Assembly: GCA_020284085.1 (NCBI GenBank)
Contig: JACEVL010005070.1
Location: 321,501 to 385,500, forward strand
From: Aporrectodea caliginosa
Lineage: Eukaryota; Annelida; Clitellata; Crassiclitellata; Lumbricidae
DNA: 64,000 nt
Direction: 5' to 3'
The notes beneath the pieces were generated by a model. That model was not told the origin of the DNA, did no database searches, and was given only the letters and a program-made list of their open reading frames with translations. The position numbers were made by a program, and so were the translations under genes. Of the stretch, positions 31,865 through 55,860 are shown piece after piece (position 1 is the first letter of the stretch; each line of letters opens with the position of its first letter).

Positions 31865-31959
31865 CTGGACGCTCGGAGAGTACAGGATAAGATACAATAA
31901 GATAAGATAAGAAAATTCTTTAATTGACCAATTACTATCCGCATTTTGGTGTACATACA

Positions 31960-33640: not shown

Positions 33641-33769
33641 AACAAGGATCCTGAGTGGCCGAGTGGGTTTGTAGCCTGCTCGTCACGCCGGCGCCCCGGG
33701 TTCGCTTCCCGGTCGGATCGGTTTATCAGAGATTAATTTCTCGGATCTTTACTGCGGGTGGCTCGGTCG

Positions 33770-34710: not shown

Positions 34711-34860
34711 ACGTGGAGTACAATACAACACACAATACAACACATCACAATACAACTGGGGCGCGGTGGTTTAGGGGTATGTTCGGTGCCTTGCAGCTGG
34801 AGGGTTGCGGGTTCGAATCCACCTCAGTAGTGTACAAAGTACAGACTGTCAGCCACCGAG

Positions 34861-35858
34861 GGGTCGGAGGGGGAGGTGCGGAGGGTAGGAAGCCACCTGA
34901 TTGGTCCACGCAAGTCACGTGACCTATGACGTCATATCTATTAATAGCACAATGGGGAATTTGCTGAAGTAGTTTCCATGCGTCATATCTATTAATAGCA
35001 CAACAATTGGGAGTCTGTTGACCTAGTTTCCATGACGACGGCACGCCTAGTTTCTGGCTCAACCACGCTCGACTGCACTTTGACCTAATTAGTATATCAG
35101 TAGTGCACCACCTTACCTATTACGTAACATTCACCTGACCTCATCACACAACCTCATTAGCATACAAATAGCAAGTTTCTTGTCCTCCTTTCCAGCACTA
35201 CGGCACATATAGTTTCTGGCACACATACGTTGAAACTTGTTTCTTATAAATATTAAACAATCACATCATTTCATACTTAGCAGGAATTGTTTGACACTAC
35301 TTTTGTATCGTGCATTTACTTAATTCAGCACATAAGTTGGTATTTTATCATATAAACGATTGAATGTAAATACATAAAGCGAACTCTTGAGCAAGTATAA
35401 AGTTTGATAGATGACATTATACACTAAGAGATTGGTTTTAATTGAATAAAGTTGCGAACTGTGTGACTTATTTACATACTTATTAAAATAGTATATCTTT
35501 GAATTTGAATCCTTGTGCAACGAACGTATTGACTCGTTCTGGCACGGACACAGTTAGCCACCATTGCAGCAGAGTACCAACCTTCCAGAGAATTAGCTAG
35601 TTTTCTAGTCATACATTAGAAGTTGATGAATTTAAACACACACATATATTTAGAAGTATTCAAATTTCATAAGCATTCGAACCTACTATTTCACCAAATC
35701 AACGGATGACATTATAGCGCTTTAGAAGTTACAGAGATTGACAGAGAAGCATCAGAAAGAGAGACACGTGGGATTTTCAGCTGATGCTTTAGAAGTTTGG
35801 AAGAGAGACAGAGAGTGATATTGTAGTATGGAGCTTTAGAAGTTCCAGATATTGGCAG

Positions 35859-35870
<12 letters not shown>
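34861..35870. other. Non-coding stretch
   Basis: A short direct repeat (GTCATATCTATTAATAGCAC at about 34929 and 34983) is the only structure I see. Confidence 0.5.

Positions 35871-35934
<64 letters not shown>
35866..35934. repeat. (GA)n microsatellite
   Basis: An uninterrupted GA run of about 68 bp. Confidence 0.97.
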
Positions 35935-35937
<3 letters not shown>

Positions 35938-35959
35938 GAAACATCAATCTGTGTGAACC

Positions 35960-36540
35960 CAGCAGTTTCTGCCAAACTCGAGTAACCTAAGACTCGAGAA
36001 ACTCACAACTCGGGAAGATTCAAATTGTGAAACTTAAGACTTGCGAAACGTAAAACATGAGAAACTCTCAACTCGAGAAGTTTAAAAGTTGTGAAACCTA
36101 GAAACTTAACACTAATGAAACATAAATCTTGACAAACTCACAACTAGCGAATCTTTAAAATTGACAAACTTGGAAATTTGACCTTTGTGAAACTCGTAAA
36201 CCAGCAATCTTTGAGGAATCCCTAATGTTGGATAACTTAGAAACGTACAAACTCGTAAAAGTTCGACAGAATGAGAGAGTCATAGTGTACCCAGAGAGAG
36301 CGAAACTTGAGAAACTTAGTGAAATTTGAAAGTCTTAGACATCTAAGAACTGGTGAAACTTATAGAGAACTCACAACATGTGAAACTTATAGCTCTTAGA
36401 TAACTTGAAACCTAAGAAACCTGGTGAAATGTACAACTTTTAAAGAACTCACAACTCGTGAAACCTGCAACTCTTAGAAAACAAGAGAAACTTGAGAAAC
36501 TTATAACTTTTAGGAAACTTTAAACCTTGTGCGATGCTTT
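35960..36540. repeat. Degenerate GAAACT-rich repeat array (upstream block)
   Basis: GAAACT, AACTTA and ACAACTCG motifs recur every 10-25 bp without strict period. The same vocabulary reappears at 38220-39190, on the other side of the LDLa receptor gene. Confidence 0.75.
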
Positions 36541-36874
36541 ACGAGTTCGAGAAAGTCAGAAAGCGTGAGCGAGAGACGCATTAGATTAAAATTTTACATC
36601 GTAAAGGACACAAGATTGATAGTGCGTAGTACAAACCCGCGACTTTTAGACTGTATTGCGACACGAGCGGAAGGCTCGTATAGTTAAATTGTATATTTTA
36701 ATGGAGCAGAGATAGAAGAAATGATTAATTGTAATGCAAATGCACATCTTTCAGTTTACAACGTAATATGGATGTTTTCTTAGCAGACTTATGCGATTCT
36801 AGATTGTAAAGAGAACTGCATTGAGAGTTTACTCGAGGGACTTACATATATTGAGATACAAAGATTGTGAGGCA

Positions 36875-36950
36875 TGGTGGTCGACTGGTTAAAGCGCCTG
36901 ATCTGTAACGCACAGAGTACGGGTTCGAGCCTCATCCGAGATAGTTAGGC
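36875..36950 (+). repeat. tRNA-like sequence (SINE head or pseudo-tRNA)
   Basis: A box A-like TGGTCGACTGGTTAAAGCG (about 36886) is followed by box B-like GGGTTCGAGCC (about 36920). Acceptor and anticodon stems do not pair cleanly, so I do not call a functional tRNA. Confidence 0.5.
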
Positions 36951-37428
36951 CTACTGTGTAGGGACTGGACATTGAGGAAGTCCTTCACTCACATTTTCTC
37001 TACAATACACGTGTATCGACGTATTCGACGTATTCTGTACTTTGTCAGGAGGAGGAGGAGGAGGAGGACGACACCAAAATATAGTTGTATTATTACATTA
37101 TATTATAAAAATTCACGAGACTATGGCTTGTTCACTAGAAGTTACAATTGCATAGGTCGAAAGATACACTAGATAGTCGATGGTTTACTACATAAGATTG
37201 TTTGCATTATAAAATTGTAAATTCTAAGGAAACTACGTATGAAGTGAAGATTTCTAGCTTAAAATATTGGTTTGTATGATGAAACTTTGATATTGCGAGG
37301 TTGAAAAGATGTACGGGGCGAAGGTTTAGGTAGTAAATTGAGAACATACAGCTTGCGCGGAGAGGCTTCCTGAAGGATTTGACATTGAATTTATAAATAA
37401 TAATAATAATAATCCGCCAATTGCATCA

Positions 37429-37597
37429 ATGAGAACCCAATCACGCATCGTACGACCATCGATTGATCAAAATTCAAGTTGTCAATGGGATGAATACATA
37501 TGCGTATCCGACAGTAGCTGTATCGATCGAAATCTAACATGTGATGGAAGGAACGATTGCATCGACGGATCGGATGAGAGCATTTGTCCTTTCACCG
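37429..37597 (+). CDS. LDLRAD-like receptor: LDL receptor class A exon
   Basis: The frame encodes one LDLa domain with six Cys (spacing C-x6-C-x5-C-x6-C-x5-C-x8-C) and the calcium-binding end DCIDGSDESIC. It ends at a donor ACC G|GTATGA (GT at 37598-37599), phase 1. The next exon at 37823 continues the frame exactly. The ATG at 37429 may be spurious: no signal peptide follows it, so an upstream exon with a signal peptide is expected, and the true exon start may be an acceptor between 37410 and 37470. One LDLa, one TM and PPxY motifs together resemble LDLRAD3/LDLRAD4-type proteins. Confidence 0.75.
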
Positions 37598-37822
37598 GTA
37601 TGAGTATTATACATATGGATTTTGATTATCATAATATTATTCAAAATATTTAATTATAAAATCGAAGAGACTGCAACAGAAAATCAGGATCCGAGATAAT
37701 GATGTTCGGCGCTTGTGTAAAGAGATGTGATTCATGGTAGAAATGAACACGTCAAGATCATATGTATACCATAGGAAACCTATACACTTACGCGATTTAC
37801 ATGTTAATTGTGTAATACATAG

Positions 37823-38121
37823 GTGGCGAACTTTATACCGGAGTCATCAATCGCATTTTCCTCACAAATCGAGTCATAATCGGTGTCAGCATCGTCTCTA
37901 TCGTCATCTCAGTGCTAGTCGTAATGTACATCATCAACGCATTTCGACGAAGATCCATCTTGTTTCGAACCATCAGACGACAAGCTCAGACCATCGCGGA
38001 ATACCAAGACACCTGTCTGAATCCGCCTCCCTACGACTTCTATCTACCAATCGCACCATCTTATGCGACCAATCCGCCAACATATGCACGGATTTCCACC
38101 GGAGGAGATGATTGTTTATAA
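37823..38121 (+). CDS. LDLRAD-like receptor: TM and PPxY cytoplasmic exon
   Basis: The acceptor ATACATAG (AG at 37821-37822) joins the previous exon in phase 1 (G|GT GGC). The frame encodes a short stalk, a TM helix VIIGVSIVSIVISVLVVMYI, a basic stop-transfer (FRRR) and a cytoplasmic tail with NPPPYDF and NPPTYAR, then a stop at 38119-38121. PPxY motifs bind WW domains of NEDD4-family ubiquitin ligases, and in LDLRAD3/LDLRAD4/PMEPA1-type proteins they link the receptor to ligase recruitment; LDLRAD4 and PMEPA1 dampen TGF-beta signalling. The membrane topology and motifs are seen; the ligase link is inferred. The 225-bp intron is unusually short for this window. Confidence 0.75.
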
Positions 38122-38219
38122 GCTGAATCGACATTATTTGAGACAGTAACAAATTTGAAAACGAATAGATTGAGAAATTTACAACTTTCAACGAACTTTC
38201 AACTCGAACAATGTAAAAT

Positions 38220-39190
38220 GTTGATAACTTACAGCTTTTGAAAGCGCACAGCTTTTGAAATTGAAAATTTTTAGAGAACTTACAACTCCACAGACACGAG
38301 AAACTTACAAACTCAGGAAACTTGCAACCTTTGTGAAACTCGTGAAACTGTCAAATCATGATAAAACTTTTAGAGAACCTACAATCTTTGTGAAACTTAG
38401 AACCTTTGCGAAACTCGAGTTATTTAAAACTTTCAGTGAACTTACAACTTGAACAGATTAAAAATTGTGAAACTCAAGAAACGTCAATCTTTGTGGAGCT
38501 AGGGGTCTTTGTGAAACTTGAGAAACTGTAAACTCGTGAAATTTAAAACTTGGAATATTGAAAATTGTGAAACTTGCAGTCTTTGCCAAACTCGAAGACC
38601 CTAAAACGTGAGAAACTCACAACCTTGGAAGCATACAAAATCGTGGCGAATCCTAGAAACTTAAGACTAGTGAAACAGAAATCTTTAAGAGAACTTACAA
38701 CTTCAGAAACTTCAATCTTTGTGGCGAAACTAGTAGTCTTTACAAAACTTGAGTAACCTAAGACTTGAGAAACTCACGACTCGGTAAGAATCAAATTGTG
38801 AAACTTAACATTCGTAAAACACGAAACATGGGAAACTCACAACTCTGGAAGTTTCAAATTGTGAAACTTAGCATGCGTGAATCTTAGCATTCGCGAAACA
38901 TACAACTTGTGAAGTTTACAAATTGTGATTCCTAGAAACTTAAGACTCGTGAAACGTAGGCCTAAAACTTTTAGAGAACACACAACTTGGATAGCTTGAA
39001 AATTGTCAAACTTAGAAATTTAGTGATTGTGAAACTCGCAAACCCGCAAGCTTTGCGAAATCCATGAGCTGGAAAACTTAGAAACGTACAAACGTCCAAT
39101 CTTTACGAAACTTGAAACCTTAGAAACCCACAAACACACACGCACAATTGGTAGAATGTCGAACCCGTCAAACTCGAGAACACGGAAATC
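38220..39190. repeat. Degenerate GAAACT-rich repeat array (downstream block)
   Basis: The same motif set as at 35960-36540 (GTGAAACTT, AGAAACTTA, AACTCGTGAAA), again without fixed period. Short ORFs in it are artefacts. Confidence 0.75.
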
Positions 39191-40465
39191 GGTAGATTGT
39201 AGCAATTTTATAGAGTAAACAAGCAACTTTTACGATACGCGGAAAGGTTCGCGCTGAGAAATTACACCTTAAACGTCGTATAGTTGGATGTAACTTAAAA
39301 ATTTCGTAGCGCCAGTGCGTCTTCACGATGTCGAGTAGAAAAGCGACCAGAATCTACTTAGTACTATAGGGCGTCGTCATCGAGACTCATGAGATTAGAG
39401 CTTCTTACTTAAAATTATATCCGCACAGAGGTACGAGACAACATTCGACGTATCGAAATTATAAATTTTAAGATCCGACGTTGGTTGGTTTGAATGGACG
39501 CTCGTATAGATCACGCGCGAATTTTAACGTGCAAAAGACAGAAGATTGAAAATGTACTAAGCGCAGAATCCGCAGCGACTCGACCCGACGCGAACTGCGA
39601 AGCGATGATTAAACGATTATATGCGCGAAATTGTCAAATTCTCATAGAGAGGCAGCGTTTATGCTAAAATTCAACTATTATATTCATAAGATGCGTAGGA
39701 CTCGCGTCTTTTCAGGCATAAAGACGTCTGATTTATCGATATGCGCGTTGAACTTGACGCGTTTAGTTTTAAGCAAACGATATAAATTTGCGCATGATGG
39801 GGGAAGGGGGAAGGGGGAAGGGAGGACTAGCCCGCCCCAGCCCCAGCCCCAGCCCGCCCGCCAGCCCAATCACACGTGTAAACTAATGGAGCACGAAGCG
39901 GCGAAGCCGCTTCGGTATAAGCCTATCGACGCTGTCGAAAAATCAAAAAATTTTGAAATTTGAATAGATATCAACTTTTGAAACGCCAAAGTGCGCTATG
40001 CGATGTTCTATCTGAACGTCCGTTTTCAGTTACTCCATAATTTCTATCGTCTAAAGTTATGCATCGCATTACTTACTTACTTACAATCCTGTAAGGTAGA
40101 GTCGGTACTCGTATCACTACTGATGACATTCCGCAAAAATCGAAAAAATCGAACTCGATACGATTAATTAACATTGCGTGCATTGCGTACACTACCTGCA
40201 TTATTATTTTTTAGTATAGGGCCTATATATATTTAATATACATCCGTTTCTGCGTGCACTCCAATATGTATAAACTATCGATTTATTGTCTATGTATTCG
40301 GCTGTATAAACAGTTTAATCGTATACGTACCAACAGTTTCTACTGTCTAGACAGGAATAATTATATCCAACAATCCATCGTTTTAACTTTACAAATGCAT
40401 ACATGTGAACTAATGTTTTGCATATATAATGAGCACAGGTGTTCTTTAGGTTGATATATATATAT
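39191..40465. other. Non-coding stretch
   Basis: A G-rich run (GGGGGAAGGGGGAAGGGGGA, 39799-39826) followed by a CCAGCCC run could form a G-quadruplex or hairpin. No gene is supported. Confidence 0.5.
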
Positions 40466-40469
40466 ATAA

Positions 40470-40833
40470 TGTGTATTCGATTGTTAAGCGTTTTAGTCTT
40501 AGGCCTTAGTTGCGCTGTCGGCTCGTGGGCGCTTGGCCTAAAGTAGCAAAAACATTGACTGACGGTAGATTCTCTACACGTGCAGTTAGCGCGCCAAACT
40601 TAGAAACTGCTGATGACAGTAAATTTGAACAATACAGTGTAGTACAGTTGTTGTAAGGCAAGAGTTGAGTTGTTGTTATTAAACTGTGTTTGAAGAAAGA
40701 AAGAAACATTCAAAGAACTGTGTCAATTTAATTCTTAAACAGTTAGAAGTCGTTGAGCAATTTATATGTAGAGATAAGGAAAGTTCTTGAGGTAGGTCAC
40801 AACTAAGAAAGAAAAGAGTTGGTGACATAATTG
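40470..40833 (+). mobile_element. Possible 5' LTR
   Basis: The interval begins TGTATTCG and ends TGACA just before a primer-binding site, as an LTR should (TG...CA). No second copy exists in the window to confirm it, so the start is a guess. Confidence 0.35.
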
Positions 40834-40860
40834 GTGGCAGCAGCGGTGGAATTCGAAACA
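40833..40860 (+). promoter_or_regulatory. Retrotransposon primer-binding site
   Basis: TTGGTGGCAGCAGCGGTGG followed by AATTCGAA matches the complement of a tRNA 3' end and T-arm: TGG for the CCA end, then a stem, then ATTCGAA for the TPsiC loop. A leucine-type tRNA is my best guess. Confidence 0.6.
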
Positions 40861-40945
40861 ACGTCTGGGATTCGAAACAACGTCTGGAATTCGAAACAAC
40901 GTCTGGAATTCGAAACAACGTCTGGAATTCGAAACAACGTCGACT
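40852..40945 (+). repeat. 20-bp tandem repeat in leader
   Basis: Four to five copies of GGAATTCGAAACAACGTCT lie directly downstream of the primer-binding site. The first copy shares ATTCGAA with it, so the array may have grown from the binding site. Confidence 0.85.
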
Positions 40946-41109
40946 GGTGAATACGCATTCAAATCATTGGTAAATCTACGACAACGAAAGCCTCAACGAC
41001 AAAGGTATACAAGTTGGTTGTTATCAAACAAAGAACAATCCCCAATACTTCAAACACAAAAGAAAACTCGTGTTTTCCAGAAAGGACAGCACTGAAGTAA
41101 AGAAGTAAG

Positions 41110-41697
41110 ATGGAGAAACTAAGTGTCAAGAAACAATCAGAACTGAAGAAGATGTCTTCTGAAAGATTAAAACAGCGCTTGTTAAAGGCTGGTTTTGAAG
41201 AAGAGAAACTGGAAGATATGTCACGTGAAGACATGCTAGAAGCGCTAGCTGAAGTCTGGCTTAAAGAAGAAGCAGAAGAAGAAGGTGCTGTCGGTGGTGC
41301 TGTGGAAAAGGTTACTGAGAAACCGCCTGGGCCTATGTCTATGGAGACGATGATGCAATGGATGATGATGACAAGACAAGAAGAGAAAGAGAAAGAGGAG
41401 AAACGGAGACAAGAAGAGAAAGAAAGAGAGGAGAAACGGAGACAAGAAGAGAAAGAAATGCGACAGGAAGAATTACGTCTTCAAAGAGAAAAAGAAGAGA
41501 AAGCAGAAAATGTACGACAGGAAGAATTACGTCTTCAGAGGGAAAAAGAAGAGAAAGCAGAAAATGTACGACAGGAAGAATTACGTCTTCAAAGAGAGAA
41601 GGAAGAGAAGGCAGAACGTCTTCAGAGGGAAAAAGAAGAGAAAGCAGAACAAGTTCGTGTAGCAGAACTTGAGTTGCAAAGAGTTTACAGACACTGA
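41110..41697 (+). CDS. Coiled-coil gag-like ORF, 3' truncated
   Basis: 195 codons. Residues 1-60 are charged helix (SSERLKQRLLKAGFEEEKLE), like the N-terminal helix of some Ty3/Gypsy gag proteins. Residues 92-190 are a long Glu/Lys/Arg/Gln coiled coil with repeated EELRLQREKEEKAE units. It lies about 250 bp downstream of a primer-binding site, which supports gag. The foldback arm begins at 41681, so the last codons and the stop are contributed by that repeat and the natural C-terminus is lost. No protease or RT follows. A host coiled-coil gene is the alternative. Confidence 0.55.
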   Translation: MEKLSVKKQSELKKMSSERLKQRLLKAGFEEEKLEDMSREDMLEALAEVWLKEEAEEEGAVGGAVEKVTEKPPGPMSMETMMQWMMMTRQEEKEKEEKRRQEEKEREEKRRQEEKEMRQEELRLQREKEEKAENVRQEELRLQREKEEKAENVRQEELRLQREKEEKAERLQREKEEKAEQVRVAELELQRVYRH

Positions 41698-41939
41698 CAA
41701 GCCGCTTGTATTTAACTTGAATTATAGAAAAAGGGTGGAAATAGTGCGCTCAAGCTTTTCTTTTCACTTCTTAGCATTTATTTATTATGCTCACTAAGCA
41801 CTTTTGCAAAACGTGCTTTTACATTTAGGTATGTCTCAAACTATGCTATCTAGAATTATCAAGTATCTTAAATTTAAAGTCAGCAACTTGGGTTTCTCTA
41901 GACATGAGGTGGCTGAGTCGTTTGGGGAAAATTTCAGAA

Positions 41940-43230
41940 CTTGTAATTTTCCACACCCTTTGCATTTCAGAACTTCTCGTTTGCAAATTTAAAATTTCCG
42001 AACTTCTCGTTTTCAATCCTTTAAATTTCTGATCTTATCGTTTGCGACTTTAAAATTTTTCTTAACTTCTTGTTTGCATCTTTTACATTTCAGACGTCGT
42101 GCTTCCAACTTTAAAATTTCAGACATTCTGGTTTGCATCTTTTAGATTTCAGACGTGATGGTTTTCAAAATTTTAATTTTCCATTTCTGTCAAGTTTATC
42201 TTTTTAGATTTCAGACGTTGTGGTTTCCGCTTTAAAATTTCGGAACGTGCGGTTTTCAAACCTTTACATTTCAGATGGTGTGGTTTTGAAAATTAAGATT
42301 TCAGACTTGGTGGTTTTCAAAATTTTAATTTTAGACAACTTCTCGTTTACAAATTTAAAATTTCGGAACTTGTGGTTTTTCCATCCTTTAGATTTCAGAA
42401 CTTTCTCGTTTTCAAACCTTTAGATTTCAGATTGTGTGGTTTTAGCTTTAAAATTTCAAGAACTTCAAGTTTTGCATCTTTTTACATTTCAGACGTCGTG
42501 CTTTGCAACTTTAAAATTTTCAAACATTCTGGTTTGCATCTTTTAAGATTTCAGACGATGTGCTTTCCAACTTTCAAAGTACAGACATTCTGGTTTGCAT
42601 CTTTTAGGTTTCAGACCAGGTGGTTTTCAAAATTTTAATTTTCAGACATTCTGGTTTGCATCTTTAGATTTCAGACCTGGTGGTTTTCAAATTTTTAATT
42701 TCAAAACTTCTCGCTTGCAAATTTAAAATTTCAGAACTAGTGGTTTTCCATCCTTTTAGATTTCAGAACTTCTCGCTTTCAAACCTCTAGATTTCAGATG
42801 GTGTGGTTTTGCAACTTTAAAATTTCAGAACTTCAAGTTTGCATCTTTTGCATTTCAGAGGTCGTGCTTTTGCAACTTTAACTTTTCAGACATTCTGGTT
42901 TGTATCTTTTAGATTTAGACGATGTTGCTTTCCAACTTTAAAATTTCAGACATTCTGGTTTGCATCTTTTAGATTTAGACCTGGTGGTTTTCAAAAATTT
43001 TAATTTTAAAACTTCTCGTTTGCAAATTTAAAATTTCGGAACTAGTGGTTTTCCATCCTTTAGATTTCAGAACTTCTCGCTTTCAAACCTCTAGATTTCA
43101 GATTGTGTGGTTTGCAACTTTAAAATTTCAGTACTTCAAGTTTGCATCTTTTAAATTTCAGACATCGTGCTTTCCAAATTTAAAATTTTCAGACATTCTG
43201 GAGCAGAGTTGACTCTCATTTTAGAAGACT
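41940..43230. repeat. Left-arm outer array, higher-order repeat
   Basis: About 30-bp monomers (TTTAAAATTTCAGA plus variable 14-16 bp) are organised in higher-order units of about 305-370 bp. The block AACTTCTCGTTTGCAAATTT recurs at about 42337, 42704 and 43009. The complement fills 46700-47960. Confidence 0.85.
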
Positions 43231-43253
43231 AGGCATTTCTAATTGTAGAGAGG

Positions 43254-44042
43254 TTGGCGACGAGGCTAAGAAGCAGAGAGGCAGAGAGTGGCGAAGAAGC
43301 AGAAAGAGATACAGAGCTCGCTTTTTCTCTAGACGTGAGGAGGCTGAGTCAACATATAACTTTGAAAGACGACAGAGAGCTATTGGTATTCAACATTGCA
43401 AAGCACACGGTAGGCTTTTCGCTTTTAAAGCAAGCGGAGTTTTCAAAACTTCTTGTCTGCATCATTAAAATTTCAGAACTTTGTGTTTGCGACTTTAAAA
43501 TTTCTGAACTTCTTCATTGCAACTTTAAAATTTATGATCTTCTCGTTTGCGACTTTAACATTTCTAAACTTCTTGTTTGCATCAGTAAAATTTCTGATCT
43601 TCTCGTTTGCGACTTTAAAATTTCTGTACTTCTTCATTGCCTCTTTAAAATTTCTGATCTTCTCGTTTACAACTTTAAAATTTCTGATCTCCTTTGCAAC
43701 TTTAAAATTTCTGAACTTCTCTTTTGCCACTTTAAAATTTCTGATCTTCTCGTTTGCAACTTTAAAATTTCTGATCTTCTCATTTTCAACTTTAAAATTT
43801 CTGAACTTCTCTTCTGCCACTTTAAAATTTCTGATCTTATCGGTTGCAACTTTAAAATTTCATATCTTCACGTTTGCAACTTTAAAATTTCTGATCTTCT
43901 CATTTGCAACTTTAAAATTTCTGAACTTCTCTTTTGCCACTTTAAAATTTCTGATCTTATCGTTTGCAACTTTAAAATTTCAGATCTTCTCGTTTGCAAC
44001 TTTAAAATTTCTGAACTTCTTATTTGCAAATCTAAAATTTGA
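43254..44042 (+). other. Open frame running from foldback unique segment into array
   Basis: A 262-codon frame starts with a unique charged segment (EAESGEEAERDTELAFSLDV) and continues into 10-residue array units. The unique first 73 codons recur on the right arm (46439-46660, minus). No known domain is visible. The repeat part is probably a by-product of a 30-bp unit, so I do not call it a gene. Confidence 0.3.
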
Positions 44043-44160
44043 GATCTTCACGTTTGCAACTTTAAAATTTCAGATCTTATTTTCGATCTTCTCGTTTGCA
44101 AATTTAAAAATTTCAGATCTTCTTATTTGCCATCTTCTCGTTTGCAACTTTAAAATTTAA
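43470..44160. repeat. Left-arm inner array, 30-bp unit
   Basis: Units AACTTTAAAATTTCTGATCT followed by TCTCGTTTGC (30 bp) repeat more than 20 times. Because 30 is a multiple of 3, two plus-strand frames stay open (10-residue units such as FLIFSFATLK and KISDLLVCNF). Confidence 0.9.
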
Positions 44161-45639
44161 GAACAGGTGGTTTTCCATCCTTCACATTTCACACCATGTG
44201 GATTGTAAATTTAAAATTTCAGCTTTGTATCGTTTAGCTTTCAGACTTTTAGATATCTCAGTTTGATATGAGGGTGTCTTCTTTGAAAAGTTGCTGACTG
44301 TGAGTTAAAATGAGATAGTTTAATGGACACATCATTTTTCAAAGTTACATGAACGAGAGAAACTCACAAATTTTAGACCCTGAAACGGAGGCGAACTGGG
44401 CAAACTTAAGACTGTAGCTTGTATGGTACCATTTAAGACGGATCGCTCCTCGAATTTACATGTTTTTAGCTGAAATAACCGAATGAATGAAAGCCTGTAC
44501 AGGTCTTCTATTAGTTTGGAAAGCTAAAGAGGAAGGGCTATGAGATTGGTAATGTTGCATCTTTTAGGTTGAGCAATGCTATTTTTCTTACTAAACCTCC
44601 AACTTGCGCCGTTTCAAGTGTTTCAAAAATGAATGTTTTAATCTATTTGCAGCTCGTTCTCTGCTTGTGCACAGAAGAGTGGCAGCGAAGCTGCCACTCT
44701 GTTACAGCGGCGGAGGCGGCGGGGCCTCCCCTAATCTTACCAGTATCCATGGGCATGGCCATCGTATACAAGCTAATCGGAACATGTCCAAGTCTTTTAA
44801 TTTTTGAGTTTATACTGCAAACAGAGTATCAAACTTGAAATTCTCTAAAGCTCAGAAAGAGGTCAACTGAGCGATGAGAACTGAGAGATGGGAAACCTGA
44901 AACATTCAACTCTGAAAGATGCGAGTGCTGAAGTTGCAAATTTAAAACCTATTGCAAAGGTTTCCATCTTTCCGTTTTCACAACTTTGCATTCGGATCTT
45001 TCAAAGTTGAATGTTTCAGGTTTCCCATCTCTCAGTTCTCATCGCTCATTTTGACCTCTTTCTGAGCTTTAGAAAATTTCAGAGTTTGATACTCTGTTTG
45101 CAGTATAAACTTCAAAATTGAAAGACATTGGACTAACGCTCAGCATGATGTCAACAGACGATGGCTGGGGAACACCATTGAAACTAGAGAGGATGCAGCA
45201 CTCGCTGCCACTCTTCTGTGCTGAAAGCAGGCTGAATGCAAAGCTGTGAATTTTGAAATACTTGAAAACTGCAACAGGTTTGGGGTTTGGCTGAAGCGTG
45301 CTCAACAAAAGATACTTCAAGACCAATGTCTTACACTCGTCCTCATTAACTTTCCCAGCTAACAGCAGCTACAGCCCGCAAACAGTCCGGCATTTCGACT
45401 AATATGCTATGCCATGGAGATTCAGAACTGATGTGACCGCCAATTAACGGTCTGCCCAGTTGCCGGGGTCTAAGAAATGTGAGAGTTTCGTTCATGCTGC
45501 TGTGGAAAAATGATGTGTCCGATTAAACTAGCTCATTTCTAACTCATTTTCAACAGACTCGTTCAGTTCAAACTGAGCTATCAAACTGATTGAAAGGCTA
45601 AAAGAAACTTCAAAAGCTTCAATACACAATGACTCGAAA

Positions 45640-46450
45640 TGTGAAGGATGGAAAACCACCTGTTCTTAAATTTACAAAGTTGCTGAAGATGCAAATAAGA
45701 AGATCTGAAATTTTTAAAATTGCAAAGGAAATCGATAAGATCTGGTACAAAGTTGCAAACGTGAAGATCTCAAATTTTAGATTTGCGCATAAGAAGTTCT
45801 GAAATTTCAAAGAGTTGCAAACGAGAAGATCTACAAACCAAGTTACAGAACTGATACGATCAGAAGTTTTAAAGTGGCAAAAGAAAAGTTCAGAGAAGGC
45901 ACAAAGTTGCTGGAATTGAAGATCAGAAATTACAAAGGTTGATAAACGATGAAGATACATTTTAAAGAGCAATCGATAAGATCAGAAACTTTAAAGAAAG
46001 CTAGAAAGTTCAGAAATTGAAACGTCTGAAGATCAGAAGAACACAAAGTACAAACGGGTCGAGAAGATCAGAAAGTAAAAGTGGCAAAAGAGAAATTCAG
46101 AAAGAAGTTAAATGAGAATCAAAGTTTTAAAGTTGGCAGGCTGAAGATAAAATTTAAAGAGGCCACAAAGAATTACAGAAAGTTTCAAGCTGAGAAGATC
46201 AGAAATTTTACTGATGCAAACAAGAAGTTGCAGAAAATGTTAAAGTTGCACAAGCTGCAGAGATCTGGTAATTTAAAGTTACAATATTCAGAAATTTTCA
46301 AGAGCAAACTGAAAGTTCTCAAGCTTTGCTGATGCCTACTTAAAGTTCAGAGGACACAAAGTCGCAAACGAGAAGATCCGAAATTTTAAAGTTGCAATGA
46401 AGAAGTTCAGAAATTTTAAAGTCGCAAACACAAAGTTCTCAAATTTTAAT
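45640..46450. repeat. Right-arm inner array, decayed copy
   Basis: The complement of the 43470-44160 array is recognisable (GCAAACGAGAAGATC, AAATTTTAAAGTTGC) but has many indels and lost periodicity, in contrast to the clean left array and the well-matched outer arms. Confidence 0.75.
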
Positions 46451-46699
46451 GATGCAGACAAGAAGTTTTGAAAACTCCGCTTGCTTTAAAAGCGAAAAGC
46501 CTACCGTGTGCTTTGCAATGTTGAATACCAATAGCTCTCTGTCGTCTTTCAAAGTTATATGTTGACTCAGCCTCCTCACGTCTAGAGAAAAAGCGAGCTC
46601 TGTATCTCTTTCTGCTTCTTCGCCACTCTCTGCCTCTCTGCTTCTTAGCCTCGTCGCCAACCTCTCTACAATTAGAAATGCCTAGTCTTCTAAAATGAG

Positions 46700-47960
46700 A
46701 GTCAACTCTGCTCCAGAATGTCTGAAAATTTTAAATTTGGAAAGCACGATGTCTGAAATTTAAAAGATGCAAACTTGAAGTACTGAAATTTTAAAGTTGC
46801 AAACCACACAATCTGAAATCTAGAGGTTTGAAAGCGAGAAGTTCTGAAATCTAAAGGATGGAAAACCACTAGTTCTGAAATTTTAAATTTGCAAACGAGA
46901 AGTTTTAAAATTAAAATTTTGAAAACCACCAGGTCTGAAATCTAAAAGATGCAAACCAGAATGTCTGAAATTTTAAAGTTGGAAAGCACATCGTCTGAAA
47001 TCTAAAAGATGCAAACCAGAATGTCTGAAAATTTTAAAGTTGCAAAGCACGACCTCTGAAATGTAAAAGATGCAAACTTGAAGTTCTGAAATTTTAAAGT
47101 TGCAAACCACACAATCTGAAATCTAGAGGTTTGAAAGCGAGAAGTTCTGAAATCTAAAGGATGGAAAACCACTAGTTCCGAAATTTTAAATTTGCAAGCG
47201 AGAAGTTTTGAAATTAAAATTTTGAAAACCACCAGGTCTGAAATCTAAAAGATGCAAACCAGAATGTCTGAAAATTAAAATTTTGAAAACCACCTGGTCT
47301 GAAACCTAAAAGATGCAAACCAGAATGTCTGAAATTTTAAAGTTGGAAAGCACATCGTCTGAAATCTAAAAGATGCAAACCAGAATGTCTGAAAATTTTA
47401 AAGTTGCAAAGCACGACGTCTGAAATGTAAAAGATGCAAACTTGAAGTTCTGAAATTTTAAAGCTGCAAACCACACAATCTGAAATCTAAAGGTTTGAAA
47501 ACGAGAAGTTCTGAAATCTAAATGATGGAAAACCACAAGTTCCGAAATTTTAAATTTGCAAACGAGAAGTTTTGAAATTAAAATTTTGAAAACCACCAAG
47601 TCTGAAATCTAAAAGATGCAAACCACACCATCTGAAATGTAAAGGTTTGAAAACCGCACGTTCCGAAATTTTAAAGTTGGAAACCACAACGTCCTAAAAT
47701 CTAAAAGATGCAAACTTGATGTTTTGAAAATTAAAATTTTGAAAACCATCACGTCTGAAATCTAAAAGATGCAAACCAGAATGTCTGAAATTTTAAAGTT
47801 GGAAAGCACGACGTCTGAAATGTAAAAGATGCAAACAAGAAGTTAAGAAATTTTAAAGTCGCAAACGATAAGATCAGAAATTTAAAGGATTGAAAACGAG
47901 AAGTTCTGAAATTTTAAATTTGCAAACGAGAAGTTCTGAAATGCAAAGGGTGGAAAATTA
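46700..47960. repeat. Right-arm outer array
   Basis: The inverted counterpart of 41940-43230 with the same higher-order units (for example AAAACCACTAGTTC at about 46862 and 47163). Confidence 0.85.
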
Positions 47961-48219
47961 CAAGTTCTGAAATTTTAAAACGACTCAGCCACCTCATGTC
48001 TAGAGAAACCCAAGTTGCTGACTTTAAATTTAAGATACTTGATAATTCTAGATAGCATAGTTTGAGACATACCTAAATGTAAAAGCACGTTTTGCAAAAG
48101 TGCTTAGTGAGCATAATAAATAAATGCTAAGAAGTGAAAAGAAAAGCTTGAGCGCACTATTTCCACCCTTTTTCTATAATTCAAGCTAAATACAAGGGCT
48201 TGTCAGTGTCTGTAAACTC

Positions 48220-48355
48220 ACTCGACATGAAAATGCATGTTACCCAAATGTGCTTCGTGTGCATAATAAATAATTGATGAGAAGTGAAAAAAAGGCTTGA
48301 GCTCTCTATTTCAAACCCGTTTTCTATAATTCCAGCTAAATGCATGGGCTTGTTG
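48220..48355. repeat. Degenerate extra copy of foldback terminus
   Basis: The order ATGTTACC, GTGTGCATAATAAAT, GAAGTGAAAA, GGCTTGAGC, TTTTCTATAATTC, GGGCTTGT repeats in direct orientation the terminal motifs of 48080-48205, with many changes. The right terminus is thus partly duplicated. Confidence 0.7.
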
Positions 48356-48359
48356 TATA

Positions 48360-48785
48360 AGAGTACCATACCATTGTGAAAACATACAGTGGTTTGGTGC
48401 CCTTGCGAAAATATACAGTGGTTGGGAGCCTTTGCTAAACTATACAGTGGTATGTTGACATTGTTAAAACATACAGTGGTATGGAACCCTTGTGAAAACA
48501 TACAGTGGTTCGGTGCCATTGCGAAACCATACTGCTGTACGGTGCCCTTGTGAAACCCTACAGCGCTACGGTGCCCTTGTGAAAACATACAGCGATACGG
48601 GTCCCTTGTGAAACCCTACATCGATACGGGTCCCTTGTGAAACCCTACAGCGATACGGGTCCCTTGTGAAACCCTACAGCGATACGGGTCCCTTGTGAAA
48701 ACCTACAGCGATACGGGTCCCTTGTGAAACCCTACAGCGCTACGGGTCCCTTGTGAAACCCTACAGCGCTACGGAGCCTTTGTGC
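48360..48785. repeat. 29-33 bp minisatellite
   Basis: The first part has 33-35 bp variable units (GTGAAAACATACAGTGGT...). The second part, from about 48570, has near-identical 29-bp units CGATACGGGTCCCTTGTGAA plus ACCCTACAG. Confidence 0.92.
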
Positions 48786-48929
48786 TAATTATATGCATGA
48801 CGTCATAGGTCACGTGGTTGACGTCGACCAATCAGGATCGACTGAGGTAGAACTGTCACTTGTATCACTACTCATCATACACTACAAGTGGTGAAGACGT
48901 CCTGACACATAAGCTTCTTCATCCACTAC

Positions 48930-48932
<3 letters not shown>

Positions 48933-48960
<28 letters not shown>

Positions 48961-49043
48961 TGTATGTATGTATGTATGTATATATATATGTATGTATGCA
49001 TGTATGTATGTATGTATGTGTGTATGTATGTATGTATGTATGT
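48933..49043. repeat. (ATGT)n microsatellite
   Basis: ATGT units with a few interruptions. Confidence 0.95.
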
Positions 49044-49294
49044 AAGGTAATCTTTTCCTTGAATTAACTAAAGTGCTGTAGTAGCTTCTAGTTCTCCAGA
49101 CGTAGACAGAATGATAGCTAGATTTTAGCGCTCGATCATTTCTTGTTCACTTAAAGGTCGCTATATTTAAAGAAACGAAACCTGATTTTCTGTTGTTAAA
49201 TCGCGAGAGCCAATGAGGAATCATACAAATTAGTTATCACAATCACATTTTACAATAGGAAACTATATTAAAAGACAATTCTCTTATTTAATTT

Positions 49295-49450
49295 CCCTCC
49301 TCTCTCTGTCTCTGTCTGTCTGTCTGTCTCTCTGTGTCTGTGTCTGTGTCTGTGTCTCTGTTTCCCTCTCTCTGCCTCTGTCTCTGTCTGTCTGTCTGTC
49401 TCTCTATGTGTTTGTCTGTCTGTTTGTCTGTCTGTCTGTCTCTCTCCCCC
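49295..49450. repeat. (TCTG)n-type microsatellite in P450 intron
   Basis: Imperfect CTGT repeats begin some 25 bp after the P450 exon 8 donor (minus strand). Confidence 0.92.
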
Positions 49451-49476
49451 GATTGCAGATGTATTATATTTCTTAC

Positions 49477-49555
49477 CCCAGCTGGAATGTGAAATCCACA
49501 CACTTCAATATCTTTTGCTATTCTACGACTTGTTGCAAACGTAATAGGGTATAAC
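49477..49555 (-). CDS. Mitochondrial-clan P450, exon 8
   Basis: Acceptor GTGTACAG|G at 49555; donor GGG|GTAAGA at 49476-49475. It completes the Arg of ExxR (residue 437, codon split across the intron) and encodes residues 438-463, [20 protein letters not shown] and then FHIPAG, the strand after the K helix in mitochondrial P450s. Phase is exact with exon 7. The next exon, which should carry the PERF/W meander and the haem-Cys loop, is not in the 49 kb that follow on this strand as far as I can see. Confidence 0.9.
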
Positions 49556-49559
49556 CTGT

Positions 49560-50610
49560 ACACAAACAATTTAATTTCTTTTCCTGAAGAACACGTCTTG
49601 AGGCTTTGAGATTTTAAACTATAGAGCGATAAGTAAATTAATAAGTCAATATTTACAAATCAATGATTCACTTGTTGAATTGAAATCAAAACGAAAACTA
49701 AGGTATACCGTGGCAGACAGATTTATCTTCTCCAGTAAAAACCTTAAGCAGTTATTTTTATCAGCAACTATGCTGCAATTGCATGAAACAATTATTTGAA
49801 TATTCGCCATCCTTCTATGTTCTGGAGTTGGCAGGAATCGTCTTGCTTTGGTTAAGGGCAATGGTTCCTCGTGGTGTTGACGAGTGATTGTCGCAGAAGG
49901 GGAAAAAGGTGTCCCACGGGTCCAAATATGACGTAGGCGTATACCTAAAAAAATGCTGTAGAGATAATTATAGCCTATTGGTCACAGCGCCAGCGTGGCT
50001 GACAGCGGCGAGTCTGGCGAGCGTTAAACGCAACCGGAAGTGCATGTTGCACGCGTCGTAGTTAGAGATGACACCAATAGGGCGAGGAAACGCCCAATTA
50101 TTCTCAATGGATGGACAGTCGGTCAGCTGATACACAAGGATCAGTTAATTGGTGGGTTGCATCCCGTAGAGGTTCGAGGGACTAATGACAGCATCCAGAA
50201 TGCGAAGGGTCTGACGGAAACTGTGTTCGTGGAGGAACTGCATTATAAATGACGTACCTATAACGATGTGCCGCAGGAAGCGAAGGACCGCCCGAGAAAC
50301 GTGTACTGCAGGAGTATGGCAATGTTTTGTCGGTTAAAGATGGAAACGCTGGAAGGATGACGGTGTGCGAGAACCGGATCGAAATGGGCGGACAGACAAT
50401 TATAAGCCATGAGACAGCAACCATTACCTTAAATATAGAGCCGCTGTTGATGCCTCTTTGAAATCTCTTAACTTTCAGAGGTTGTTGTTCAGGAGGATTT
50501 CAGTGGTAGTTGAATATAGTTGAGGAGCAAGCAGCTAAATTCAACTATCACTTAGTCAATACTTGTCTTAGTTGCTAATAATGTCTTTGTTGGATTCTTC
50601 TTGAATTTAC
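49560..50610 (-). other. P450 intron 7
   Basis: No other gene is supported. A segment at about 50040-50430 holds open frames of uncertain, possibly retroelement, origin (KRPIILNGWTVGQLIHKDQL). Confidence 0.5.
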
Positions 50611-50777
50611 CTGAAAGTTTCTCGGAGGCATGCCTTGACGTACTGCATGCTTTGAAGTTTCTCTGGCGTTATTTCCTCCTTATCTGGCATTAAGTCGGCT
50701 GTTTCACGGTAGAGGGCCGCCTGTGCAGAGGGACTTTTCGACAGACAGAAGAGCGTCCAGAGAAGTCCATTGGACGT
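50611..50777 (-). CDS. Mitochondrial-clan P450, exon 7
   Basis: Acceptor CATGCAG|ACG at 50777; donor TTCAG|GTAAAT at 50610. It encodes residues 382-436. It opens with TSNGLLWTLFCLS, the second half of the oxygen-binding I helix, and ends in the K helix KACLRETF; Glu434 and Arg437 form the invariant ExxR, with the Arg split by the intron (phase 2). Confidence 0.93.
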
Positions 50778-50844
50778 CTGCATGAAGATAATTATGCATG
50801 CACACAAAACATTTCTTATAAACTGTCACGAACTGGCATTGGAT

Positions 50845-50997
50845 CTTAAGCCCAGTGGCGTAAATCATGGGGGGGACAGAGGGGGACAGTCCCCCCAAAG
50901 TTTTGACTTAAGCCCTGCTGTCCCCCCCAAAATCCGGTCCTCGTAGGTACTCTGTCCCCCCCAAAGTTATGTATAGATTTTCGCCTCTGCTTAAGCC
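50845..50997. mobile_element. hAT-type MITE (element 50853-50989) in P450 intron
   Basis: A perfect 8-bp duplication CTTAAGCC (50845-50852 and 50990-50997) flanks a 137-bp element with ends CAGTGGCGTAAATC and, inverted, CAGAGGCGAAAATC. The interior has GGGGGG/CCCCCC runs. Confidence 0.88.
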
Positions 50998-51524
50998 CAT
51001 GACTTTGAATTTATGCCCCATTCATTCTCAACATATTGTAATTGGTTTGATGGTTTTGAAAAGAAAGGAATGTCATTCAGTTCTTCCAAGCCTCTTCCTA
51101 GTCATTTTTAACTCAAGACCTATACATAGTATCAAACTTTAGAAAAGCAGTAATAGGTTAAGTCTTTGTCAGATCTAACCCTACTTCAACCAGCATCTTG
51201 CTAGCCGAGTATTATTACTATAGCCTATAGCCTATCGAACCTCCCCATTTCTGTATTCCCCATTTCCGTTTACTCTTGGACCTCCTCAAAGTTAAGCAAA
51301 TTACAAAACAAGTCATAGACGTGTCTCATCTACCTATTGAATCTCGACTGAACTTCCTAACGGATAACAATTGTAGACTGTCGTTTAACTTCAAAACAAA
51401 CATCATTTGATGCTTTGTGCATTAGGGTAACGGCGCTACAAAAGTCTCCTTAGATCGAGGTGAGATCTTATTTCACCATTAGAGCCTACTATATACGGTG
51501 TGAACTGTTGAGAGGAGACTTAAC

Positions 51525-51683
51525 CGTTTCGACGGCTCCCATCATCAGATCAACGCAGTTCGAGTTGGCTTCTTCTGGAGTTAGATTCGTCTGCGACAGA
51601 AGGTAGGTCAGAAACTCAGACCTCTCCTCCTTTTCGCCCTCAACCAAGCCTTGTTTCGCCTGTTTCTCTAAGGCAGCCACTTT
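51525..51683 (-). CDS. Mitochondrial-clan P450, exon 6
   Basis: Acceptor ATTACAG|AAA at 51683; donor ACG|GTTAAG at 51524-51523; 53 codons, phase 0 both sides. It encodes residues 329-381, from the H helix region (EFLTYLLSQTNLTPEEAN) into the I helix, VDLMMGAVET. With exon 7 this gives MGAVETTSN, matching the (A/G)Gx(D/E)T(T/S) proton-delivery motif, with Glu before the Thr. Confidence 0.92.
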
Positions 51684-51749
51684 CTGTAATATCATCAACC
51701 AGTCTATTATAGGTAATGACAGTGCATGGTGGCGATGCTGTTCTGGTGT

Positions 51750-52110
<361 letters not shown>

Positions 52111-52609
52111 AATAGCGGTTGTAGTTACTAATTGCTGGGCCCCGAATAAGCGGTTAGTCTCTTAATTGGCACTTGCAAATAGGCGCTTAAGAGTGCGCCA
52201 GTATAGTCGTGGGCTGTTTATGTCTGACTGTGACCAATAGCTAATCGGGGCAGATGGTTCACCGGAAGTGGTGTGCTGTGGGACATGCGGTAAGGAATTA
52301 GGTTGATCGAATGTTTAACAGTCTCGTCAGAGTTATGAGGTTCGAGGCACAGCTGTCAAAGGACAGAGAACGAGGGCGGATAGATGTCTCTCGACGGACT
52401 GAGATAGATATAATTTAAAATTGTGCACAGTTGACTTTTGTTATGTTTTTCCTTGATGTAACGAAGTTGCCCGTTTCCTTGAATAAAATCTCGAAACGTG
52501 AAAAAAGTATAGTCTGTTCAAGAAACGAAAAATCTTCACAGTGATGACGATGATACCGTTTGTCATATTATGGCCATGAAACTCATTATTAATATAATAT
52601 AGGCCTACC

Positions 52610-53235
52610 TATTTATAAATTTGTCAATAACTTGCTGCCTGATTCATTTTCAAACTATTTTACGAAGGTAGTAGAGATGCATGGTCATTGTACAAGATCT
52701 TCTTCTGGTGGTTTATATGTCATATATGCACGCACTAATTATCGTAGATTTTCAATTTGTTGTAGTGGTCCAAAAATTTGGAATGCAGTACCGATGAGTA
52801 TTCGGAATGCACCCACATACACCCAATTTAAGAAGCTGTGGAATAGTTACTTGAAGGATTAACCATACTTCATTTAACACTGTTTCATCGAATTGTTTAG
52901 ATATTGATTTTCTTAGTAAATTGCAATGTTATTATTTAGTTAAGAACATTATTGAGTTGAACCTTTCTTTCTTACATATTGATTTTCTTAGTAAATTGCA
53001 ATGTTATTATTTAGTTAAGAACATTATTGAGTTGAACCTTTCTTTCTTTCAACTGACTAACCAGCCATAAATGATTATTGTTAAAAGGGGTGACCCTAAT
53101 TAAGCGGGGCTTGTGCCCCTTTTGGGTCTTCCCTGTTCCCTAGCCAATGCACTGATATGTAATAGTCAAGTTATAATTGTTGTTAATTGTTATATGCATT
53201 GTGCTTCTGGAAATAAAAAGTTGTCAGTTGTCAGT
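52610..53235 (+). mobile_element. LINE C-terminal fragment with duplicated 3' UTR segment
   Basis: The plus strand encodes NYRRFSICCSGPKIWNAVPM followed by a LWNSYLKD end, the terminal block of a LINE ORF2. The 3' UTR has a near-perfect 75-bp tandem duplication (52901-52975, 52976-53050). An AATAAA near 53212 and a GTTGTCA repeat end it. It lies inside P450 intron 5, opposite strand. Confidence 0.75.
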
Positions 53236-53570
53236 TACCTTCGTTCGCCAGAAACAAAGATTTTTACATCCTCGCAATAAGAAAAATGATTACAATTTAC
53301 AACAATTGCGTGTAGGCCTATGCTTTGTTTCACTTTGCATATTTTCTGTCTGCGTATAGGCCTACGTGAACTGAGTAGGCGCCGTAGCCTAGGCCTATGT
53401 AGCAGCGCTCGGTCATCCGCAGTTGACAGTGCGTGTAAAGCGTTAAGCGTCCTATAGAAGTCGCTTGCTATTGACGATGCTATCGCTTTGGTCGTAAGTA
53501 CAATTACAATTACAATAGAAATGCTTTGAATGCAGTGTATCTGTAGTCGAGCAGAGTAGCCACTGCCTAC

Positions 53571-53791
53571 CTTGTCGACGAATGTCTGTCCTATCTGTAG
53601 GACTCGGTCTGCGTATCCTTCGTAGATCTTCCAGGTCTTCGTCGGATGGATCTTATAGAGTGGAACGTTGTACATCAGTGGCTGCATGTACTTGAAGAAC
53701 CCGACGAGGTTCTCGATGAAGTCCTGCGCCTGCTTCGGCGGAGGATCGTTGAAGCAACCGATCCTCTCCTCGAACAACATCGTTCCTATGG
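53571..53791 (-). CDS. Mitochondrial-clan P450, exon 5
   Basis: Acceptor GCGTAG|CC at 53791; donor AAG|GTAGGC at 53570-53569. It completes Ser255 and encodes residues 256-328. With exon 4 it gives WALESIGTMLFEERIGCF, a signature stretch of mitochondrial P450s, followed by helices F and G with a basic KIHPTKTWKIYEG region. In this clan the area contributes to adrenodoxin or membrane contact; specific contacts are inferred. Confidence 0.93.
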
Positions 53792-54067
53792 CTACGCATA
53801 CACACACACACATGTATAGGCTACACATAGGCGCAATTCTTAGGGGGTACGAGGGGTCTACGCACCCTCCACTTTTGGACTGGAAGGTACCATACCCCGC
53901 GCTTTGCATATTCAGCAGAAATAATAAATAAATTATTGCCATGGAGGAAGGCCATCATTTAATGAGTCCTTATACAAACATAGGCTTACATGCTGTACGT
54001 TGACTCTGGCTGTTGAGAATTAAATTAATGCCTTGCATGGTTCCATATGTAAGTGGTATTTATATGG

Positions 54068-54112
54068 ACCCAGTGCCGGCGCCAGGATATCAGGTTTGGG
54101 GGGCTAAAGCTC
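54068..54112. repeat. Left end of hAT MITE, truncated
   Basis: CAGTGCCGGCGCCAGGATAT followed by GGGGGG matches the left end of the MITE at 1776-1949. No right end is present. Confidence 0.6.
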
Positions 54113-54249
54113 CGAAACCTTCCATTTTGTCCCCTTTTCCTTGTGATTTAAAATACTACAAGGTTACAAAGACTGATAACTTTGCAAAAACGGGTGATTC
54201 GTATAGTGGCTGGTACTACTTATGGATCTCATACCAACCCTCTATTTGT

Positions 54250-54600
54250 TAACTTTAAAGTATTAAAATTAGAGCAGCTCAGGCTGTACCAAATCGGTGA
54301 ATGTATGCACAAGTACAACCGAGGCCTACTACCTCCAGTGTACAATTAAGGGATTCTTTAATCTTGCCTCAGAGGTTCACTCCCACTTAACAAGAAACTC
54401 CGTAAATTATAGAAGTGTCTTTGCTCAATCTAACACTCGTCAGTTCTCAATAAAATCTATTGGTGCCACTACCTGGAATAAAATTCCTCAAGAAATCAGA
54501 AAATCTCCCTCACTTACACTGTTTAAGAATAAGAGCTCTTCGCACTTATTTAGTTGAAGGTGATTATTATAGCCTACTATCACACGTACATCTTATTACA
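54250..54600 (+). pseudogene. LINE C-terminal RT fragment
   Basis: Plus-strand frames encode NTRQFSIKSIGATTWNKIPQ and a preceding R.GLLPPVYN-like block, the C-terminus of a LINE ORF2. It lies inside P450 intron 4, opposite strand. Confidence 0.65.
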
Positions 54601-54722
54601 GCCAGCTTCAAATTACCAAGGGTTTCCATTAGTCATAAATCATAATGATGACGACGACGATGATGACGACAAATGTGACGATGATGATGGTTGGTGGGGG
54701 TGACAGTGATTGTGATATTTAC

Positions 54723-54913
54723 ATTCGAGCGCCCATTTGAAGATCTCGTGTTCCAGCTTGGGAACTGCTCCGTTGTCCTGTCTCTTGCTGTGGATGTGCT
54801 GTACGAAGTCCGTCGCTGTTTCATCCATTGGTCCGACGTGTTTGAGGACCTCGAATGGTCTGAGGGTCTTTTTGCTCAGAATAGTTCGATGACGATACCA
54901 CTCTTCGCCTTGT
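54723..54913 (-). CDS. Mitochondrial-clan P450, exon 4
   Basis: Acceptor TTGACCAG|A at 54913 (chosen over a second AG at about 54909 because only this one keeps the frame); donor GAAT|GTAAAT at 54722-54721. It encodes residues 192-254: QGEEWYRHRTILSKKTLRP (the C helix, whose W and R contact haem propionates), then the D helix and EIFKWALE. Confidence 0.93.
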
Positions 54914-55074
54914 CTGGTCAACAATTCCAACCAGCAGAATTTATGAAACCAACATTCAGAAAGTAACACTATACTATAGAGTATAGACCATGGATGACAT
55001 TCATTGCGATGTCCTATGAGCCCAAGATGACTGCTGTTTATGTTTCTAGTTCAGTTTGAAAGATTACTAGAGCA

Positions 55075-55860
55075 CAGATAGTATAGTATAGTATAGTATA
55101 GCACTGCATAGCATAGCATAGTATGGTATAGTATGGAATAGTATGGAATAGTATAGTATAGTATAGTATAGTATAGTATAGTATAGTATAGTATAGTATA
55201 GTATAGTATAGTATAGTATAGTATAGTATAGTATAGTATAGTATAGTATAGTATAGTATAGCATAGCATTGCATATCATAGAATAGTATGGTATAGTATA
55301 GTATATATTAAAGTATAGTATAGCATAGTATAGTATAGTATAAGCTTGGTATAGCATAGTATAGTATAGTAGAGTATAGTATAGCATAGTATGGTATAGT
55401 ATAGCATAGTATATATTATAGTATAGCACTGCATAGCATAGTATAGTATAGCGTAGTATAGTAGAGTATAGTATAGTATAGCATAGTATATAGTATAGTA
55501 TAGCATAGTATAGCACTGCATAGCATAGCATAGTATAGCACTGCATAGCATAGCATAGTATGGTATAACATAGTATAGTATAGTATAGTATAGTATAGTA
55601 TAGTATAGTATAGTATAGTATAGTATAGTATAGTATAGTATAGTATAGTATAGTATAGTATAGTATAGTATAGGTAGACACACACCTATAGTATAGGTAT
55701 AGTATAAGTATAAGTATAGTATAGCATAGCATAGCATAGCATAGTATAGTATAGCATAGTATAGTATAGCATAGTATAGCATAGTATAACATAGCATAGC
55801 ATGGCATAGTATATATTATATTATAGTATAGCATAGTATAGTATAGTAAGCTTATAGCAC
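55075..55860. repeat. (TATAG)n pentanucleotide satellite, about 0.8 kb
   Basis: TATAG units with CATAG and TGCATAG variants. Because the unit is 5 bp, all frames can stay open on the minus strand; the Tyr/Ile/Leu ORFs are artefacts. It lies in P450 intron 3. Confidence 0.97.

Follow-up and report, generated by a model that had tools for sequence, protein, structure and literature searches.

A 6.5-kb palindrome of tandem arrays in an Aporrectodea caliginosa contig, possibly a join of two repeat copies

An inverted repeat of 6.5 kb occupies positions 41681-48219 of a 64,000-nucleotide stretch of DNA from the annelid Aporrectodea caliginosa (assembly GCA_020284085.1, contig JACEVL010005070.1, positions 321,501 to 385,500 of the forward strand), which we call the window and within which all positions are counted. 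Our best reading of this palindrome, to which we give slightly less than an even chance, is that two copies of a recent, array-bearing repeat were joined through a fold-back read or an assembly step. Such a join is, in our judgement, a little likelier than a real palindromic element, whether the flanks of the latter were switched by the assembler or exchanged in the chromosome.

A sequence-only reading of the same DNA had described a palindrome of this length built of 30-bp units in higher-order blocks, and both claims hold. The arm pair stands at E = 0.0 in a self-comparison of the window, far above chance, and Tandem Repeats Finder, with which all arrays were called, gives 30-bp-unit arrays in the arms with higher-order periods of 61, 121, 303 and 364 bp. 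The window has 87 inverted pairs at E up to 1e-10; 8 of them are not wholly inside 41681-48219, the longest of these measuring 199 bp. The palindrome splits at 44957 into arms of 3277 and 3262 bases, each consisting, from the outside inwards, of an outer segment (about 245 bp), array A (about 1.25 kb), segment U (267 bp, not an array), array B and a central segment (about 0.7 kb):

41681..44957, plus strand: left arm (arm alignment)
44958..48219, minus strand: right arm, the reverse complement of the left arm
44899..45016, no strand: centre, with a stem up to AAACCT, the loop ATTGCAA and then AGGTTT (fold and alignment)
41681..41924, plus strand: left terminal segment, outside the arrays, starting GAGTTTACAGACACTGACAAGCC (98 and 100 identical columns per 100 in the two outermost windows)
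47975..48219, minus strand: right terminal segment (arm alignment and terminal 20-mer search)
41945..43193, plus strand: array A of the left arm, in 30-bp units, lightly noisy to about 43040, mainly through one-base indels
46720..47960, minus strand: array A of the right arm, cleaner, with the higher-order periods of 61, 121, 303 and 364 bp
43194..43460, plus strand: segment U of the left arm, 267 of 267 bases the same as 46454-46720
46454..46720, minus strand: segment U of the right arm, the counterpart of 43194..43460
43449..44160, plus strand: array B of the left arm, in 30-bp units, fairly regular
45690..46380, minus strand: array B of the right arm, heavily garbled (edit distance to clean units, k-mer support)
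45097..45660, minus strand: central segment of the right arm, with 58-74% identity to the left arm in individual windows

Agreement between the arms is uneven. Their outer 1.84 kb is 98.1% identical on a gap-free count, and perfect runs reach 208 and 435 bp. The inner arms are poorly matched, with 47-84% identity per 100 alignment columns between 43561-44821 and 45097-46343 (14 windows); the second-nearest block of 100 columns to the centre (44822-44919 against 44997-45096) has 95% identity. In right-arm positions the disagreement spans about 45097 to 46380, the garbling beginning about 140 bp past the centre. The arms had been said to match from the outer edge to within tens of base pairs of the centre, which is borne out for the outer part and next to the centre but not in between. 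By folding and alignment, the symmetry reaches a central hairpin with a 7-nucleotide loop, and there is no loop or middle domain between the arms beyond it. A turn without a spacer is what one would expect of an artefact.

The outer flanks are unrelated to each other beyond 41681 and 48219, as had also been noticed earlier, and they hold the following features:

41110..41682, plus strand: 5' part of a Ty3-like gag frame, cut at the left end of the palindrome (alignment to relative P0036)
48227..48353, plus strand: diverged copy, in direct orientation, of the arm end at 48077-48203, 84% identical on a gap-free count, just outside the right end
48374..48784, plus strand: 29-bp tandem array adjoining the diverged arm-end copy
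49477..55050, minus strand: cytochrome P450 gene covering positions 86-365 of 462 of PF00067, its C-terminal exons not found

As far as can be judged from the sequence, the outer ends of the palindrome look like the true ends of a repeat. A 20-mer within the terminal segment occurs in the window, with up to 3 mismatches permitted, at the two palindrome ends and nowhere else. On the left, the frame at 41110-41694 (195 codons) is the start of a gag, presumably of Ty3-like type given its resemblance to such gags. The relative P0036, of 552 aa, aligns with it as far as ELELQ(K/R) at 41682 and then runs on with QQFDIQLEQL... for 383 residues more; beyond 41682 the frame of the window enters the arm, where a stop follows after four codons. 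The gag homology ends within 2 bases of the point where the symmetry starts, so the left limit at 41681 is an independent junction. Pfam finds no domain either in the gag fragment or in P0036. The remainder of the gag, searched for with five relatives, was not found in the window: the best match away from the junction is an 18-residue piece at 56339, at chance level (E = 2.6), and the right flank of the palindrome is not the rest of the gag. Ahead of the gag, at 40830-40860, TTGGTGGCAGCAGCGG looks by eye like a primer-binding site after a 5' long terminal repeat.

On the right, the P450 gene is found as five exon pieces, which fall on positions 86-138, 148-219, 226-283, 278-333 and 333-365 of the 462 in PF00067. 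The last exon found (49477-49555, by reading of the sequence) is bounded by an AG acceptor and a GT donor, and from the donor further exons are expected to its left. Scans for the missing part on the minus strand of 1-49482, among them those of 39010-49002, 29700-39012, 19710-29702, 9720-19712 and 1-9732, gave no match, nor did a second scan, in short frames, of 48220-49482, 40680-41682 and 39680-40692. The control, a scan of 49000-55998, picked up three of the five exon pieces known there; the remaining two score weakly (E = 0.0086 and 0.054 in scans of their own). Strict and loose patterns for the haem motif, run in six frames without a positive control, returned nothing P450-like: the loose patterns hit the plus strand once, at 24787, and a looser one had six hits, two of these in frames of the 29-bp array, and none resembles a P450 end.

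Are these two flanks compatible with a single insertion site? Since neither the gag remainder nor the last P450 exons were found in the window, they do not look like halves of one site, and the different flanks, the cut gag and the cut P450 gene together point to a join of two loci. The difference between the flanks had been taken to argue against an assembly artefact. It rules out only a simple fold-back at one locus, in which the same flank would stand on both sides.

The differences between the arms look, on sequence grounds, like read or consensus errors. We grouped them into 89 clusters, 40 outer (left position below 43540) and 49 others, and asked which arm's version recurs elsewhere in the palindrome. 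Of the outer clusters, 27 have support for the right version, 3 for the left, 2 for both and 8 for neither, making the left copy the odd one; of the inner clusters, 13 have support for the left version, 1 for the right, 1 for both and 34 for neither, and here the right copy is odd. This switch of the odd arm has a Fisher p of 1.4e-7, the clusters being not fully independent. None of the 29 gaps in the outer arms exceeds 3 bases, 25 are of a single base, and 19 of the 34 gap columns adjoin the same base. No whole-unit indel occurs across an array of about 40 units, and with no outer gap above 3 bases the number and order of units are equal in both outer arms; the inner arms are too garbled for this comparison. 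Gaps make up 44% of the differences in the outer arms, 28% and 25% in two inner parts and 33% in the innermost; eight natural control pairs have shares of 0, 0, 4, 6, 9, 10, 17 and 19%, and a ninth, which lies inside the noisy left arm, has 48%. In array B, the edit distance of 60-mers to clean units is 7.0 on the left and 15.2 on the right (p = 0.00015; 23.0 for shuffled sequence). Two LRAT-domain frames elsewhere in the window, 631 and 613 codons long, run without a break, and this suggests local rather than general noise.

How could such a join have come about? A recent repeat of at least 3.3 kb, with the fixed end GAGTTTACAGACACTGACAAGCC... followed by 30-bp arrays, would sit in at least two places of the genome. 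One copy would interrupt the Ty3-like gag (locus A), and the other would lie beyond the 3' side of the P450 gene (locus B), with an older relative of its end next to it. A fold-back read, in which a sequence is continued by its reverse complement, or a comparable step of assembly would have bridged the two copies, the contig then leading from locus A into the element, through a turn at about 44957 into the other copy and on to locus B. If the reads behind the contig are from nanopore sequencing, as we infer, two reports bear on this scheme. According to excerpts of these papers, nanopore reads lose accuracy from an inverted-duplicate junction onward, over about the length read before it (Spealman, PMC7229812), and foldback reads make up about 0.55-0.6% of nanopore genomic reads, with a warning of assembly tangles (Heinz, PMC12870357). 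Array B is garbled on the side after the turn, in the way described for nanopore reads of inverted duplicates, and the garbling ends abruptly near 46380, which would fit a read begun near 43.5 kb. The uncorrected stretch in one arm suggests that few reads came from one direction, since a true palindrome read well on both strands would give clean first-pass data for each arm. As for the repeat with the fixed end, it is probably a real mobile element, non-autonomous and belonging to a known kind.

A number of points weigh against a join of this sort. A simple fold-back read gives the same flank twice and here the flanks differ, so two events must coincide. The breaks in the gag and the P450 gene could stem from a real rearrangement. 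As the long-frame control scan recovered three of five known pieces, a split or strongly diverged P450 exon may also have escaped. The noise is shown to be one-sided for array B only: in array A the 60-mer edit distances are 5.3 (left) and 3.8 (right), which is not significant (p = 0.11), in the central segment the garbled arm cannot be told, and about 100 bases just past the centre are clean at 95%. Over the arms, transitions stand to transversions as 73 to 135, a ratio that we dropped as proof of sequencing error, the transition fraction of the small control pairs spanning 0.00-0.80 and so not separating error from divergence. Finally, in the excerpts of the two reports, true inverted duplicates give the same nanopore noise (PMC7229812), and eight inspected foldback reads had no extra signal noise at their breakpoints (PMC12870357).

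That the arrays code for protein was considered and rejected: a 30-bp period holds frames open, and at 43.2-44.2 kb three frames of 110 codons or more overlap, two of them forward and one reverse. The sole Pfam match in six frames of 39010-49002 is Decapeptide, whose 26.8 bits are far under the cut-off of 45; no transposase domain is matched in the same frames. Rfam gives no match in the window at gathering scores, and two exact arm 20-mers, one of them terminal, found none in viral contigs. Segment U contains a 27-bp piece 93% like the part of the terminal segment at 41893-41919.

Drosophila FB elements have long inverted ends with internal tandem repeats, and some FB copies reportedly lack a loop. 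The assembled sequence likewise has long terminal inverted repeats that contain tandem repeats, and it had first been proposed as a foldback-type transposon or hairpin locus. We regard a true foldback element as the main rival explanation, though a rather unlikely one. The whole 6.5 kb would then be a non-autonomous transposon with array-built inverted ends, almost loopless and present in several copies, between which the assembler switched at the flanks. The foldback-transposon proposal gains from the fact that both ends share a terminus and the left one cuts a gag; internal tandem repeats in the arms are also known from Tetris and Galileo, and nanopore noise is expected of a real palindrome too, with no need for a fold-back read. 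It falls short in that the element has no loop or middle domain, that six frames of 39010-49002 give no match to a transposase domain, that its flanks do not look like those of one site, and that no target-site duplication around the palindrome is seen by eye (the left flank ends GAGTTGCAAA, the right flank starts ACTCGACATG). Moreover, many palindromic copies read on both strands should have corrected the right array B, and the outer arms agree unit for unit, whereas Galileo F arms differ in repeat number (excerpts of PMC3573991).

Real exchange of the flanks could also account for two cut genes. We give a rather low probability to a loopless 6.5-kb foldback element whose arms are kept identical unit for unit by gene conversion or self-templated copying, and which exchanges flanks and so breaks genes such as the gag and the P450 gene. 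Improbable, in our estimate, is a chromosomal exchange of the flanks of a true palindromic element through ectopic recombination or deletion, in the manner of Galileo at inversion breakpoints. Exchanged target duplications do mark Galileo-made inversions, according to excerpts of PMC2775673, and both flanks here are cut; such an exchange, however, requires that a real rearrangement broke a P450 gene whose exons are otherwise in good order, and by itself leaves the one-sided noise of array B unexplained. An inverted duplication made in place by fold-back priming at a break, with no mobile element involved, would agree with the tiny loop, the 6-bp central stem and the near-identical outer arms. 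We consider it very improbable: its left limit would be arbitrary, yet that limit is within 2 bases of the independent gag junction. The idea that a transcript through the locus could be a Dicer substrate presupposes a real palindrome.

If the join of two repeat copies is the true account, the marks of a fold-back join that can be read from sequence would be an odd arm that switches part-way, exact agreement in unit number, and flanking genes that are both cut with their other parts missing. Palindromes in other assemblies could be screened for these marks before being published as foldback transposons or hairpin loci. Should the element be real, its exactly matched, loopless palindrome of arrays would make a good test case for the persistence of large palindromes in animal genomes.

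Other features lie elsewhere in the window. Degenerate short arrays with GAAACTT-type motifs, resembling the palindrome units in style by eye, are found at 35974-36500 and 38180-39150. An inverted pair 2.9 kb apart (7342-7540 and 10413-10611, 98.5% over 199 bp) looks like the ends of a DNA transposon of about 3.3 kb with broken frames. The two LRAT-domain proteins, at 22090-23985 and 28333-30174 on the minus strand, are paralogues of 631 and 613 aa with cysteine-rich ends, and the first has three relatives in the protein database. At 37460-38121 an LDL-receptor class A exon is followed by a membrane-spanning tail exon with a stop (by eye). Three dispersed copies (19397-19528, 33646-33777 and 56285-56415), 96-98% alike in the two pairs listed, overlap a tRNA-Val call at 56341-56405 and probably represent a tRNA-derived short element.

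How does the palindrome compare with known systems? Helentron-type elements carry end motifs and insert into a T-T site without duplication. Cg_HINE of the Pacific oyster, a group of non-autonomous Helentrons with satellite-like arrays, is like the present repeat in that it is dispersed and its end pieces enclose tandem arrays in the centre; unlike here, a palindromic form is not described in the abstract (PMC7492417). With foldback artefact reads, as excerpts of PMC12870357 present them, the palindrome shares its near-perfect symmetry and the near absence of anything at the turn, and with nanopore inverted-duplicate reads (excerpts of PMC7229812) the poor quality after the turn; unlike foldback artefact reads, it has two different flanks, so that a second locus must be joined. 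Tetris, Galileo and the like have long inverted ends with internal tandem repeats, and many of their copies are non-coding (excerpts of PMC4079207 and PMC3573991). In the same excerpts, Tetris of Drosophila virilis has arms with repeats of about 220 bp, a middle domain and target duplications of 8-10 bp (PMC4079207), and Galileo F has arms with unequal numbers of internal repeats, in units of about 210 bp (PMC3573991). Unlike these, the present units are of 30 bp, the outer arms are equal in unit number, and neither a middle domain nor a visible target duplication is present. Galileo copies with exchanged target duplications lie at inversion breakpoints (excerpts of PMC2775673), and flank exchange is perhaps a further likeness between Galileo and the palindrome described here.

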